The notes beneath the pieces are model-generated. The model was not told the origin of the DNA. It saw only the letters and a list, made by a program, of their open reading frames with translations, and made no database searches. A stretch of 64,000 bases of DNA from Vibrio sp. 05-20-BW147 (GTDB lineage: Bacteria; Pseudomonadota; Gammaproteobacteria; Enterobacterales; Vibrionaceae), in the NCBI RefSeq assembly GCF_013369385.1, contig NZ_SZTO01000001.1, positions 62,001 to 126,000 of the forward strand, in the 5' to 3' direction. The translations under genes were made by a program, and so were the position numbers. Each line of letters opens with the position of its first letter. Position 1 is the first letter of the stretch. Positions 27,368 to 62,901 of the stretch are shown here, in pieces.

Positions 27368-29239
27368 CTACACAGTGAATCTGTTAAGTATTTCGTCCAG
27401 TTTTCGCACGTTTCCGGTTTGTACTTGCATTGCTTGGTTGGCATTAGAAGCTTCACCAGCAACTTGTGTCGACAAGTCTTTAATGTTGACCGTGTTGTTG
27501 TTAATTTCTTCTGCGACCAAACTCTGTTCTTCTGCCGCAGAGGCAATTTGCATGTTCATGTCTGTTATACGCTGAATCGCGTCACGGATACGTTGCAATG
27601 AATCATTGGCTTCACGCGCACGCTCAACGGCTTCAACCGCACTGCCTTTACTCTCTTTCATCGCACTGGCTACTGATGCCGCACCGGATTGCAGTTGTTC
27701 AATCATGCTACGGATCTCGGTTGTCGATTGCTGAGTGCGCTGAGCCAGTGTGCGGACCTCGTCGGCAACCACCGCAAAGCCACGACCAGATTCACCTGCA
27801 CGCGCCGCCTCAATCGCAGCATTCAAGGCCAATAGATTAGTTTGATCTGCGATGTCGTTGATAACCTTCAAGATGGTTTCTATGTTCGCTGTTGCGGATT
27901 CTAGTCCTTGCACTTCTTCAACCGCCATATCGATTCTTTCAGATAACATGTTGATTGAACGAGTCGATTCATTGACGACCAAGGAACCTTGTTGAGTCGC
28001 GTCGTCGGCTTCTTGCGCAGCGCCCGCTGCTCCTTGTGCGTTATTGGCTACTTCGGTGGCCGTCACTGCCATCTCATTCATTGCTGTTGCAAGTTGCTCT
28101 AGTTCTTGCAATTGCGTTCCCATGGCTTCAGCAGAGCCTTTTGCACCCCGTGCGGTCAATTCAGTGCCATGCATAATTTCACGGCCAATCTCTTTGGATT
28201 GAATGATCTGGTTTTGCAAATTGCTAGTAAAGGTATTGAATCCGGACGCTAGCTCGGAAAACTCCTGATCCGTATTGGTATCGAGGCGATGAGTTAAGTC
28301 ACCTTGGCCAGAAGCGATATCTTGAATCGCAGCGTTTAGTGCATCGAGTGGGCGCATTAAGAAGCGAATCAGCATGGTGAGTGCCACAATACTTAAGAGT
28401 AGCGCGACGACAGAATACAAAATGGAGCTGTCACGTAGGTTGTTGACAGCGGCAAAGGCGATATCTTCATCAATAATCGCACCGATATACCAGTTTTCAC
28501 TCGGTATTTTGGTAAACGTGACTTGATAACGAACACCGTCTCTTTCGAAATGTTGTTCGCCCTCTTTCAACTGAACTTCTGGAAGATACTTTGAAAATGT
28601 CTCGCCGTTGTTTTGTGAATCTGGGTGGGCAATGGTGGTGCCGTCGGAAGAAATTAAGAAAAGGTAACCTGCATCGAACAAACTGACTTGGTTAACCAAC
28701 TGAGCAAGGTTAGTCAATTGCATGTCGTAGAACATACCTGCGACAAATTTGCCATTTTGTTTAACCGGTGTGCCTACCGAAATGATGACAGCTTTACTAG
28801 ACACATCCACGTATGGTGCTGTGACAACCAGTCTGCCCTGTGCTTTGGCATCCATGTACCAAGGACGTTTGCGAGGATCGTAATCTGGACCGGCTTCCCA
28901 CCCATCATCATTTTCAATGACGAAGCCATTTTCTTCATAGCCAAAGCCGACAGCGAGAAAACTTGATTTGAGTTTTGGTTTCTCAAGAATGGTTTTGACG
29001 TAGTCTCGATCAAAGGGGTTAATCTCGATAACTTCAGTGGTGGTTTGCGCTAAATTTTTGCGCGCTTCCATTTCGGAGACGACGGTGTTGCGAACACTGC
29101 TGACCATCTCAGTCAAGCTGGTAGAAACATGTTCTTCAATCGTGCTACGAACCGTATAGATCTGCTTTAGCGACAGCAAAGAAATGGTCACTAATAGAAG
29201 CGCGGAGGAGGCGGCTACAACCTTGTGACTAAACTTCAT
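27368..29239 (-). CDS. methyl-accepting chemotaxis protein with dCache_1 amino-acid-type pocket (paralogue B)
   Basis: The start at 29239 is chosen because GAGGG precedes it and the product then begins [12 protein letters not shown], like its neighbour [12 protein letters not shown]. The 623-aa protein has TM1, dCache, TM2, HAMP and MCP signalling domains. Its ligand pocket carries the full YxxxxRxWY motif (Y120, R125, W127, Y128), followed by a Tyr in TAPYVD and an Asp in FYDMQL, the pattern known for amino-acid-binding dCache_1AA receptors. The signalling domain is nearly identical to that of the downstream paralogue, indicating tandem duplication. Confidence 0.93.
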
Positions 29240-40316: not shown

Positions 40317-41195
40317 CTATTTTGTTTTTTTGGTTTCCCAATGAGTAATAAAGGCCACAGAAGCAATAATGATGAAGGCGCCAAGCCAGAGTCTGCCCGG
40401 TGGCACCCAACCAAAGACAAGCCAACCGGCAAGTACGTTCAATGGTAGTTTAGCGTGATCAAAAGGCTGAACAAAGGAGGCATCGGCACTGGCATAAGCT
40501 TTGACGATGGCCCATTGCGCCAGTGCAGTCATGCAGCCCGCTGCAAAAAGGATCAGCCAAATGGTCGTGCTGCTCGGCATGGTGAAATCAGGAATCGCCA
40601 GCATGATGTTGAATGGCGTAATCAACAGCAGCAGATAAACCACCATGGTGGAGGGCGGATCGTTGACCGAAAGTTTTTTAACCATCAGTGAATAACATGC
40701 CCAAAAGAAGGCCGCGCCGACAGGCAGTAAGGTCGCAAGATGAAAATCATCCGCCCAAGGCTCAAGAATGATCATCGCACCAATGAAACCGAACAGCGTC
40801 GCGCCCCAGCGTGCCACACCCACTTTTTCTTTCAGAAGCAGCCCAGAGCCGATCGTCGCAAAGAGTGGGGAAGTCATTAATAGCGCGATGCCTTGCCAGA
40901 TCGGCACCGGATAAGCGAGTGCCCAAAGCCAAAGCTGAATACCGATAACCGACAAAAAGACTCGCAGTGCATGCCAGCCAAAATGAGAGGTGCGCAGCGA
41001 TTGGCGAATGCCCAGCGTTTTTAAGTACGGCAAAATCACAATTAAAGCGATGCCATATTGAATCAGCGCAACAGTGGTCGACGGAATGGCAAATTGAATA
41101 CTGGCAACTTGCGCTAGGCTGTTGACGATAGCGAAAGCTAAACCGGCGGTCAGCATCCACGACGCGCCAAGGATTGGGTGGTGTTGAGATTGCAT
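40317..41195 (-). CDS. EamA-family (DMT) transporter
   Basis: This 292-aa protein has ten membrane segments forming two EamA repeats (about 10-140 and 150-285), typical of drug/metabolite exporters such as those for amino acids or nucleotide bases. The start has no strong ribosome-binding site. A terminator-like hairpin lies 80 bp upstream on the same strand (41276-41301), so its expression could depend on read-through from the sigma-54 unit described there. The substrate is unknown. Confidence 0.88.
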   Translation of the reverse strand: MQSQHHPILGASWMLTAGLAFAIVNSLAQVASIQFAIPSTTVALIQYGIALIVILPYLKTLGIRQSLRTSHFGWHALRVFLSVIGIQLWLWALAYPVPIWQGIALLMTSPLFATIGSGLLLKEKVGVARWGATLFGFIGAMIILEPWADDFHLATLLPVGAAFFWACYSLMVKKLSVNDPPSTMVVYLLLLITPFNIMLAIPDFTMPSSTTIWLILFAAGCMTALAQWAIVKAYASADASFVQPFDHAKLPLNVLAGWLVFGWVPPGRLWLGAFIIIASVAFITHWETKKTK

Positions 41196-41275: not shown

Positions 41276-41376
41276 AAAAAGAAGCCCCTGAGTTCAGGGG
41301 CGCAAATGCGGATTAAAGGACGTACCTCGGTGAGGAGGATAAGAACGAGAAGCACAAACGCTGCCATGCATTTGTT
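41276..41376 (-). ncRNA. candidate sigma-54-dependent small RNA (or attenuating leader of the EamA gene)
   Basis: Starting about 12 nt after the -12 element, the predicted transcript of about 101 nt opens with a 7-bp hairpin (CAAATGC/GCGTTTG, loop ATGGCA). It continues with a pyrimidine-rich single strand containing TTATCCTCCTCACC, complementary to Shine-Dalgarno sequences. It ends with GCCCCTGA-AC-TCAGGGGC followed by TTCTTTTT. This is the layout of an Hfq-type trans-acting RNA. It lacks the Qrr core. An overlapping short frame beginning MAAFVLLVLILL could instead be a leader peptide rich in branched-chain residues; its ribosome-binding site would lie upstream of the predicted start point. 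Confidence 0.55.
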
Positions 41377-41386
41377 CCTCTATCTT

Positions 41387-41402
41387 TGCAGAAGCTGTGC
41401 CA
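41387..41402 (-). promoter_or_regulatory. sigma-54 (-24/-12) promoter
   Basis: On the minus strand TGGCACAGCTTCTGCA matches TGGCACRNNNNTTGCW at all but one position and keeps both invariant GG and GC at the right spacing. It closely resembles the qrr promoter elsewhere in this window. Confidence 0.7.
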
Positions 41403-41454
41403 GTTTTTAAGTTGTTGATTTTGTTAGTTTTGGGTTGTTGAGTATCCCAGATCC

Positions 41455-41507
41455 GCACCATAACCATTCAAAAGGCGACAGTTATGGTGCAAAGGAATCA
41501 TGGTGCA
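41455..41507 (-). repeat. three ATGGTGC motifs upstream of the sigma-54 promoter
   Basis: GCACCATAAC (41455-41464) and GTTATGGTGC (41481-41490) form a perfect 10-bp inverted repeat. A further ATGGTGCA (41500-41507) repeats the one at 41484-41491 with a 16-bp step. These lie 50-105 bp upstream of the -24/-12 element, where enhancer-binding proteins act. The half-site TGCACCA is like that of NtrC, but no complete NtrC site is formed. Confidence 0.6.
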
Positions 41508-41515
41508 GGGGAGAG

Positions 41516-43291
41516 CTAAATTTGCAGTAACTGGCGGTTAAATTCTTCCACATCGAGGGGCTTGGAGTAGAGATAACCTTGGAACTCGTCGCATTGTTCG
41601 CTGACAAGCAACAAGCGCTGCTCTTCGGTTTCCACGCCTTCTGCGATGACTTTTTTGTCCATGTTGTGGCCGAGCTGAACGATGGTTCTGACTAGCATGT
41701 GATCGTGATGGTTCTCAACACAGTCATCGATAAAGGCTTTATCTATTTTTAACACATCAATAGGTAACTGCTTTAAGTAGTTGAGCGATGAGTAGGCAAC
41801 CCCAAAATCATCAATCGCAACCGTCACGCCAGATCGCCTCAAGTTGTGGCAAATTGCGATGAGCTTTTGCGGCTCTTTCATCAAGACAGTTTCGGTGATC
41901 TCTAATTGCAGATAACTGGCGGGAAGGTTTGATTCGAATAATGCGGAATTGACCTGTTGTTCAATATCATCATTGGCAAATTGAACGGTTGAGACATTGA
42001 CCGAAACAGGGATATCGTAGCCAAGATCTAACCACTTTTTAGCTTGTTTACACGCCTCGAGTATTACCCAGCGACCAATCGGAATAACCTGTTTGGTTTT
42101 CTCTGCAATAGTAATGAACTCAAGAGGACTGATGGTTCCGAGTTCCGGATGTTGCCAACGAATGAGCGCCTCTGCGCCAGTAATTTTTCCCGAAGTAAGG
42201 GAAACCTTAGGTTGGTAAACCAATGAAAATTGCTTTAGTTCAATGGCTTTGTCGAGTTCTCGTTCAATCTGATGTTGGCGTATCGTCTCGTCTAACAAAG
42301 TTTCGTCATACCAGCGAACTTTACCTCGACCTTTAAGCTTCGCTTTTTGAACGGCAATGTCTCCGTTTCTAAGCCAAATATCGAGGTTTGACATGGCTTC
42401 GTTAAAAAGTGCCACACCCGTAGCGTAAGAAAGCTGGTAAGACCCTCTTTCGAGTTCAAAAACGGCCATTAGCTTCGAGCGTAGTAGCGTATTTAATGCG
42501 TTGATTTCTTCTTTTAGGTCTTGGTTTTCAAAAACTAAAACGGCGAACTCATCCCCTTCCATGCGGTAGGCTTGACCATAACCAAGTACGGCTTTCTTCA
42601 ACCTCCTTGAAAAACGCTTTAATAACAGGTCGGCCTGCTCGTGGCCAAAGCTTTCATTGATCTCCTTGAAGGCATCGATGTCGATTTTAATTAGCGCACT
42701 GTTTTTTCCTTGCTGAGATAGTGCTTCCACTTGTTCGAGATCGGTGTAAAACGCTCGACGATTTGGTAACTGAGTGAGGTAATCTGTGCGGCTGTCTTCG
42801 CGAAATTTGGTTAATTGACGATAAAACTTCTGTTGGTAATAAACCATGACTGAGGCGAAAGCGGAGATCGCAAGAAGCTCGATGGCATCTTCAACGAGTT
42901 CATCGACATCTTCTGGCGCGACTGATAAGAAGTACGAAGTCGTGAGTAGTAACGCGATGACAAATGCCCAAGAAGTCCCAGGGAAAAGGACCAAATAACA
43001 TAACGGTAAGAGAATAAACGTCTCTTCAATCACGTCAATATCGAGCGGATCGACGATGCTGCCGACAAAAAGGTAGCTTGTGGCGACCAAAGCACACACA
43101 TTTTTGGTTTTGTGGGACGTAGAAAAGAGTGCCACAATCATGGCAATCGCAAACAACACGTAAGACCAAGGCAATAGGCTATGTTCTTCCACCAAGGTTT
43201 GCGTGATCAACAATACCGCCACAATATAAGCGGCCTTTAATAACAATACTATTTTTGAGTTTGTCACGATTTTACTTCTGCCATCTACCAT
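41516..43291 (-). CDS. membrane GGDEF-EAL protein, probable c-di-GMP phosphodiesterase
   Basis: The 591-aa protein has a membrane sensor region of about six hydrophobic segments (about 10-165), a GGDEF domain whose signature is EGDEF, and a full EAL domain (GAEALIRW, VNVSTVQF, LEITETVL, IDDFGVAYSSLNYL, KIDKAFI, AEGVETEEQ). The phosphodiesterase site looks intact; the cyclase site is altered at the first Gly and may be regulatory. CGAGG precedes the ATG. The signal for the membrane part is unknown. Confidence 0.9.
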   Translation of the reverse strand: MVDGRSKIVTNSKIVLLLKAAYIVAVLLITQTLVEEHSLLPWSYVLFAIAMIVALFSTSHKTKNVCALVATSYLFVGSIVDPLDIDVIEETFILLPLCYLVLFPGTSWAFVIALLLTTSYFLSVAPEDVDELVEDAIELLAISAFASVMVYYQQKFYRQLTKFREDSRTDYLTQLPNRRAFYTDLEQVEALSQQGKNSALIKIDIDAFKEINESFGHEQADLLLKRFSRRLKKAVLGYGQAYRMEGDEFAVLVFENQDLKEEINALNTLLRSKLMAVFELERGSYQLSYATGVALFNEAMSNLDIWLRNGDIAVQKAKLKGRGKVRWYDETLLDETIRQHQIERELDKAIELKQFSLVYQPKVSLTSGKITGAEALIRWQHPELGTISPLEFITIAEKTKQVIPIGRWVILEACKQAKKWLDLGYDIPVSVNVSTVQFANDDIEQQVNSALFESNLPASYLQLEITETVLMKEPQKLIAICHNLRRSGVTVAIDDFGVAYSSLNYLKQLPIDVLKIDKAFIDDCVENHHDHMLVRTIVQLGHNMDKKVIAEGVETEEQRLLLVSEQCDEFQGYLYSKPLDVEEFNRQLLQI

Positions 43292-43573: not shown

Positions 43574-44551
43574 TTAGAAATCGTAGCGTACACCAAGTCG
43601 AAGTGTGTCTTCACCAGAAGTGACTTTGCCGTTTACGTCTTTTACATCATCAAGCTTGTTGAGGTAGTAAGACAAGTAAGTGCGGAAGTTGCTGTTTAGC
43701 TTGTAGTAACCCACCAACTCGAGACCTTTAGTTGCGTCCGATTTAGTGCCGTTATCGTCTTCTTCGGCGAAGGTGTACATCGCGGCAACGCTAAATGGTT
43801 TGCTGATTTTGTACTGAACCGCAAATTCGTAGGCGGTGAATTCTTGCTTCGCTTTGTCATCGAGATCACCCGTCGAGAAAGTCGCACCTAGATAAAGATC
43901 GTTTAAGGTATAGCCTGCGCCGACAAGGATCTGGTTTTGGCTACCGTTGCCAGCACCGTTATCACCTGTGGAGTAAGCCAAACCCAGATCCAGACCGATA
44001 GGAAGAGAGTAAAGGCCACTGATGCCCATCAGGTCGCTATTGTCAGCGTCGCTTGCTGAATAAGTGGCTTCAATTTGTAGAGCATCGAAGCTGCCGCGAT
44101 AGGCAAACGTGCTGTCTGTTTTGTCTGATGACGCATCAATGAACTGCTGCACGCCAGAAAACTCGGTAATATCCGTCAGGTCTGAAACGATGACAGAAGC
44201 CATATCTTGCTTACCAACAGAAAACGCACCTGCGTTTGTCTTCACACCGGCGTACATGTAACGGTTTTTGAAGCTGCTTTCACCTGTTTTCTGTTCAGCT
44301 TCGTAAAAACCAAAGGCTTGTAGATCGTTCCCAAGGTCAGTGGTGCCTTTTACGTTAAGACGGGCACGAGTGCTGTCTGCCATGGTGCCGTCGATCTCAA
44401 CACCTTTGTCGGTACCAATGAAATCACCACGGAACTCAACACGCCCACCAATTTTTAATTCAGTACCGTCTGTTTCATAAACGGTTGCTGCGAAAGATGA
44501 CCCGGTGACCACTGCGGATAGGATTGCGGTTGCTAAAGCTTCCTTTTTCAT
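43574..44551 (-). CDS. outer-membrane porin (Gram-negative porin family)
   Basis: The 325-aa protein has a signal peptide ending SSFA-A (about residue 21), alternating beta strands through the whole length and a terminal Phe (GVRYDF) needed for outer-membrane assembly. The N-terminal mature part TELKIGGRVEFRGDF is typical of Vibrio OmpU/OmpC-type porins. I cannot assign it to a named porin. Confidence 0.9.
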   Translation of the reverse strand: MKKEALATAILSAVVTGSSFAATVYETDGTELKIGGRVEFRGDFIGTDKGVEIDGTMADSTRARLNVKGTTDLGNDLQAFGFYEAEQKTGESSFKNRYMYAGVKTNAGAFSVGKQDMASVIVSDLTDITEFSGVQQFIDASSDKTDSTFAYRGSFDALQIEATYSASDADNSDLMGISGLYSLPIGLDLGLAYSTGDNGAGNGSQNQILVGAGYTLNDLYLGATFSTGDLDDKAKQEFTAYEFAVQYKISKPFSVAAMYTFAEEDDNGTKSDATKGLELVGYYKLNSNFRTYLSYYLNKLDDVKDVNGKVTSGEDTLRLGVRYDF

Positions 44552-62885: not shown

Positions 62886-62901
62886 TGGCACGCTTTCTGC
62901 T
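62886..62901 (+). promoter_or_regulatory. sigma-54 promoter of qrr
   Basis: TGGCACGCTTTCTGCT matches the sigma-54 consensus with GG and GC at the required 12-bp distance; transcription should start near 62912, where the Qrr RNA begins. Confidence 0.9.

Follow-up and report, generated by a model that had tools for sequence, protein, structure and literature searches.

The segment at 41454–41491 of the window (the whole stretch of 64,000 nt that was analysed) is, on its sequence, quite probably a two-site NtrC enhancer that switches on a regulatory RNA of ~100 nt under nitrogen limitation. The enhancer would be composed of a pair of neighbouring 17-bp NtrC-type sites at a step of two helical turns. 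When nitrogen is limiting, NtrC in its phosphorylated form would occupy both sites and oligomerise, the intervening DNA would be bent, probably by IHF at 41408–41420, and NtrC would contact sigma-54 RNA polymerase at 41402–41387 (minus strand), upon which the ~100-nt regulatory RNA at 41376–41276 would be switched on. Binding by NtrC, bending by IHF, the response to nitrogen, transcription and an action of the RNA on other genes are what we infer, set beside the observed sequence, site pair, conservation, RNA covariation and neighbouring genes. As the paired site ahead of the RNA gene is of NtrC type, the RNA is probably made when nitrogen is short.

At this place, an earlier note on the same DNA had described three half-sites and a perfect 10-bp inverted repeat, and its description proved exact: the left arm (GCACCATAAC, 41455–41464) and the right arm (GTTATGGTGC, 41481–41490) are separated by a 16-nt spacer, and a third copy of the half-site (ATGGTGCA, 41500–41507) follows at a 16-bp step, as the unit of a 16-bp tandem duplication. 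The half-sites lie 52–105 bp upstream of the −24 T (41402, minus strand), where 50–105 bp had been claimed, and are thus placed upstream of a −24/−12 element, as was said of them, in a position suited to a sigma-54 activator. The inverted repeat alone is not distinctive here, since 20 perfect inverted repeats of at least 10 bp with a spacer of 3–50 nt were found in the 64 kb (2–4 in each of ten first-order Markov sequences). Among the 17 copies of ATGGTGC/GCACCAT in the window, it is at this place only that three fall within 60 bp.

Candidate sites were scored with a symmetric NtrC matrix, whose 40 unique training sites came from sequences upstream of glnA and glnK-amtB in 24 genus genomes, with the amtB sites of <10 consensus matches dropped and a truncated glnA locus (L136) left out. 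The training sites were chosen by their match to what we take to be the NtrC consensus, and the matrix is thus not independent of the NtrC assumption. The site nearer the promoter (CGCACCATAACCATTCA on the plus strand, 41454–41470; 9.0 bits) holds the left repeat arm, and the site farther from it (GCGACAGTTATGGTGCA on the plus strand, 41475–41491; 4.6 bits) holds the right arm. Read on the minus strand, the pair is TGCACCATAACTGTCGC (4.6 bits) and TGAATGGTTATGGTGCG (9.0 bits) at a step of 21 bp; its summed score of 13.6 bits was never reached when the 140-bp region around it was dinucleotide-shuffled 2,000 times, and it is the sole pair of at least 10 bits at this step in the 64 kb. Other loci of the same genome (152,741 bases; steps of 20–21 bp) hold one pair of at least 13.5 bits, at 20 bp and ahead of an exact sigma-54 match. 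Both window sites score below all training sites (minimum, 9.8 bits).

Each of the two dyads in the window seems to have lost most of one half while its other half stayed strong. The apparent perfect inverted repeat arises because it is the outer halves that survived and the neighbouring bases happen to agree. The third half-site has no second half (its 17-mer scores −5.1 bits), and its copy number varies among three close relatives, with none in L003, one in the window and, in L002, an intact extra copy and an imperfect one; this third ATGGTGCA appears to have arisen by tandem duplication of the distal half. The earlier note had held a different activator to be possible, full NtrC palindromes being missing. 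That such an activator is the better guess on this ground is not supported: the dyads of the window are half-decayed, and those of several relatives are nearer to full, for example TGCATCAAATTAGTGCA in L048 (18.2 bits) and TGCACCAAAACATTGCA plus TGCCCAATCATTATGCA in L094 (together 22.8 bits).

Conservation was examined in 50 sRNA upstream regions from 48 loci (34 after clustering), which were chosen for a sigma-54-like element; loci without the exact RNA core (L025–L028, L094, L096 and L097), those with <200 upstream bases and identical regions were left out. The best pair under the NtrC matrix has a step of 21 bp in 31 regions, 20 in 14, 19 in 3 and another value in 2. Conservation upstream of orthologous sigma-54 elements, on which the earlier note had let its reading depend, was thus found for the paired sites, with two NtrC-type 17-mers 19–21 bp apart in 48 of the 50 regions, an agreement that does not amount to 50 independent events because the regions are related by descent. 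At a step of 21, the mean best pair scored 3.1 bits, versus −19.1 (s.d., 0.8) in 200 shuffles, with a shuffle maximum over all steps of −11.6; the single best site lay beyond 5% of shuffles in 39 of the 50 regions only. Two diverged loci outside the set, the two that were tried, pick steps of 20 (L094) and 19 (L096). The 21-bp step, unlike the matrix, is free of the assumption that the presumed consensus brings in. Relative to the −24 T, the pair stands at about −100/−79 or, one helical turn closer, at −89/−68. This one-turn shift agrees with the tolerance of the sigma-54 enhancers of Vibrio qrr genes for whole-helical-turn changes, as reported in PMC4740811.

The inverted repeat fared differently as a conserved unit, being perfect in one of the 50 regions. 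The arms are complementary at 10 of 10 positions in the window, at 8 in its two closest relatives and at 2 to 8 in the rest. What selection keeps is a pair of NtrC-type sites 19–21 bp apart, not the perfect repeat. The same counts bear on the reading of the repeat as RNA, that is, as a hairpin or terminator that ends the GGDEF-EAL transcript. Its location directly behind the GGDEF-EAL stop codon and the 10-bp stem that it could form would suit such a role; however, no T run follows the repeat on the minus strand, full complementarity occurs in one of 50 loci, the spacing is kept where the complementarity is not, and in most relatives the GGDEF-EAL gene is missing there, all of which makes this reading very improbable.

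Control of the GGDEF-EAL gene (41516–43291, minus strand) by the sites deserves still less credence, next to none: although the sites adjoin the gene, they lie downstream of its stop codon, a position that already contradicts such control, and the paired sites remain in loci without that gene. As the sites are behind its stop codon, the enhancer belongs to the RNA gene, and the GGDEF-EAL gene, with its 3′ end ahead of the enhancer, is a neighbour outside the proposed switch. The order in the window is porin gene (43574–44551, minus strand; PF13609, 104 bits), GGDEF-EAL gene and RNA gene. The porin gene is the usual upstream neighbour in relatives: among L001–L030, 26 loci bear the core, and in 20 of these it is the nearest large gene upstream. 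The GGDEF-EAL gene is nearest upstream only in L001–L003 (the window, with L002 and L003 as its closest relatives) and stands there in none of the other 23.

The half-site does resemble NtrC's TGCACCA, as already remarked upon before, and a matrix made from other promoters finds paired 17-mers here. Of 23 Vibrio glnA loci, 22 have a weak partner 21 bp (+21) from the main site, and at glnK-amtB partners lie at −22 in 14 and at −51 in 17 of the 22 loci (out of 28) that are over 9 bits. In its weak-partner spacing, the RNA enhancer is thus arranged like a textbook NtrC target of these genomes. The glnA and glnK-amtB enhancers share with it a 17-bp dyad (TGCACY-N5-RGTGCA), the combination of a stronger site with a weak one at two helical turns, and a sigma-54 promoter; they differ in that both sRNA sites are weaker and lie 52–89 bp from the −24 base, and in that a small RNA is driven rather than an enzyme or transporter. 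The NtrC consensus is enriched in the 50 regions (2.20 versus 3.81 mismatches).

It is conceivable, though unlikely, that the promoter is driven by another sigma-54 activator with an NtrC-like half-site, for example one that is LuxO-like or AtoC/DctD-like, the NtrC likeness then being partial. The weakness of the window sites would fit this, as would the inventory of activators: the genome has 19 matches to PF00158 and 14 full-size sigma-54 activators, several of them without an identity above cut-off. L174, located on the glnA contig, is the only one above the NtrC cut-offs (NF008176, 830 bits; TIGR01818, 790 bits); L178, L180, L182, L183 and others are below every model's cut-off, and an unlisted NtrC-like activator is thus possible. 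Against another activator stand the geometry of the pair and the half-sites, which match glnA in the same genomes, and the LuxO consensus, which is not enriched in the 50 regions (3.62 versus 3.57 mismatches; LuxO and NtrC were the motifs compared). NtrC is thus the likely activator of the sRNA promoter: a sigma-54 element lies downstream of NtrC-type dyads in helical phase (with weak halves in the window), and ntrC is present in the genome.

The sigma-54 −24/−12 element TGGCACAGCTTCTGCA (41402–41387, minus strand) differs from TGGCACNNNNNTTGCW by one mismatch, and its −24 part reads TGGCAC in 44 and TGGCAT in 6 of the 50 regions, which had been selected for a sigma-54-like element. With at most one mismatch, 229 sigma-54-like sites were found genome-wide, versus 152 for a reversed control pattern, and most genome-wide matches should thus be chance. 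Two more one-mismatch sites are in the window (TGGCACGCTTTCTGCT at 62886–62901, plus strand; TGGCACTCACCATGCT at 28371–28386, minus strand). Between enhancer and promoter lies AATCAACAACTTA (41408–41420, minus strand), a match to WATCARNNNNTTR, which we take to be the IHF consensus. In 28 of the 50 regions, the window included, such a match lies no more than 60 bp ahead of the −24 part (shuffles: mean 0.66, maximum 4), and the strict consensus is missing from 22. In L025, a near-identical stretch of IHF-like plus −24 sequence (AAATCAACAACTTAAAAACTGGCACG) is found without the RNA core, in a region (1400–1800) with a gene that by eye is hydroxylamine-reductase-like.

Past the promoter, the first coding gene is that of an EamA transporter (start, 41195), with the RNA stretch and its terminator in between. 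The predicted small RNA of ~100 nt (41276–41376, minus strand) scores 80.1 bits (E-value of 6.8e-14 within its own genome) with covariance model R1, which was built from 29 sequences including that of the window. Its 5′ hairpin (ACAAAUGC-AUGGCA-GCGUUUGU; 41354–41375, minus strand) has GGCAG in the loop and a near-invariant stem (alignments A1 and A3), and its terminator hairpin (GCCCCTGAACTCAGGGGC, then TTCTTTTT; 41284–41301, minus strand) has one stem pair that varies on both sides in A3. GGCAG is in the 5′ hairpin loop of all 50 RNAs, 25 of which carry a second copy.

BLASTN of the intergenic region returned matches in 41 of 148 genus genomes, some of which are not the RNA (promoter-like sequence only in L025–L028). 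The shared RNA core is ACAAATGC-N1-2-GGCAGCGTTTGTGCTTC, and an exact scan for it in named genomes returned 20 stretches, every one titled Vibrio. The V. harveyi type strain (L044) is one carrier of the RNA. Strong R1 matches (E below 1e-6) were found in 47 of 196 genus genomes and weak ones (E of 0.005–0.01) in 11 more; of the two weak ones inspected, L096 is a plausible diverged member adjoining a porin gene, and L097 is without a sigma-54 element. In a family sample of 247 genomes from 13 genera, R1 matches at E 0.01 were confined to Vibrio, and a class sample of 369 genomes, which is not known to include Pseudomonas, gave no strong match outside the genus, only matches of E 0.013–0.099 in 10 genomes. 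No Rfam family matches the RNA; the only match, a below-threshold chance match to a snoRNA, lies elsewhere, at 40337–40392.

The sequence is RNA-like. In the subfamily without the window (alignment A4; 18 rows, L093 left out), hairpin 2 pairs in 100% of cells, six of its seven pairs are changed on both sides and the covariation score was reached by none of 500 shuffles. In the window's own subfamily (A3, with 17 distinct rows), pairing holds in 90.8% of cells and two-sided changes occur at three pairs. This number of pairs does not exceed that in shuffles, 445 of 500 of which attain it; the number of cells with two-sided changes and the covariation score do exceed it (0 of 500 reach). The 5′ stem hardly varies and thus says little on structure, and the minimum-energy fold of the window RNA is a different one in which this conserved stem is not formed. 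That the transcript encodes a small peptide rather than an sRNA might be suggested by an ATG with a good ribosome site in the 5′ hairpin (AGAGGAACAAATG in the window). In 19 of 50 relatives, however, the loop after the ATG has one base fewer, so that the reading frame shifts in these, and the stems covary; we therefore hold a peptide to be most improbable. The predicted transcript, with its own promoter, a terminator, a conserved covarying structure and no conserved reading frame, bears the marks of a trans-acting sRNA.

The predicted RNA represents a new sRNA family of the genus Vibrio, and its proposed enhancer is of an ordinary kind. No description of this sRNA was found in the literature searched, which includes PMC9817140, PMC4591121 and PMC8871633 and leaves out most subscription papers. 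Among known systems, NrsZ of Pseudomonas aeruginosa is switched on under nitrogen limitation by NtrB/C together with RpoN and has its functional part in a 5′ stem-loop, according to the reviews PMC9308961 and PMC8395346, the former of which gives ACAGGCAG as its conserved motif. The likeness of this motif to the Vibrio GGCAG loop covers five or six letters, and the two are set side by side by description, not by homology. NrsZ is ~226 nt long, processed and located beside ntrC, whereas the Vibrio RNA is ~100 nt long and has a porin gene as its neighbour. Qrr sRNAs (LuxO, sigma-54) are likewise products of Vibrio sigma-54 sRNA genes with sites for an NtrC-family activator upstream, and can be multicopy, as the RNA is with three copies in G010. 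An identity with Qrr was rejected, since the RNA has no Rfam match and the LuxO consensus is not enriched upstream. The srvg23535 sRNA of V. alginolyticus, 107 nt long and linked to carbon and nitrogen use, is a different gene according to PMC6186989: it is encoded next to rctB, its predicted promoter is of the sigma-70 type, and its 5′ end differs.

As a tentative and rather less secure reading, the RNA would be a nitrogen-starvation sRNA of Vibrio's own, activated by NtrC via two close weak sites, with the GGCAG loop as its working part, a counterpart of NrsZ (convergent or ancient) that ties nitrogen status to envelope or other genes. The role of GGCAG is suggested by the invariant loop, its doubling in half of the family and the tripling of the gene in one genome. 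The porin mRNA did not stand out as a target: its start ranked 13th–53rd among 58 window genes in duplex energy, by a crude gapped method that ignores accessibility. If the reading is true, the sigma-54 sRNAs of Vibrio, known from Qrr, gain one that reads nitrogen instead of cell density, present in a quarter of the sampled species. A working enhancer could then pass for an unrelated inverted repeat once both of its dyads lose one half, and motif scans for full palindromes miss such enhancers because of that loss.

Two further loci were noted. In G010 (C1:1177423–1177964; L068/L095), three tandem sRNA genes ~222 bp apart each have a sigma-54 element and a site pair. At L195 (1384–1640; C25:13902–14158 of the window's own genome, minus strand), an exact sigma-54 match (TGGCACTTGCTTTGCT) is preceded by two NtrC-type sites at a step of 20 bp (16.2 bits) and followed shortly by a terminator-like hairpin ahead of an ATG. 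The stretch is present in 4 of 118 genus genomes, in one of them over 62 bp only, and might represent a second short RNA driven by NtrC, or else an attenuated leader.
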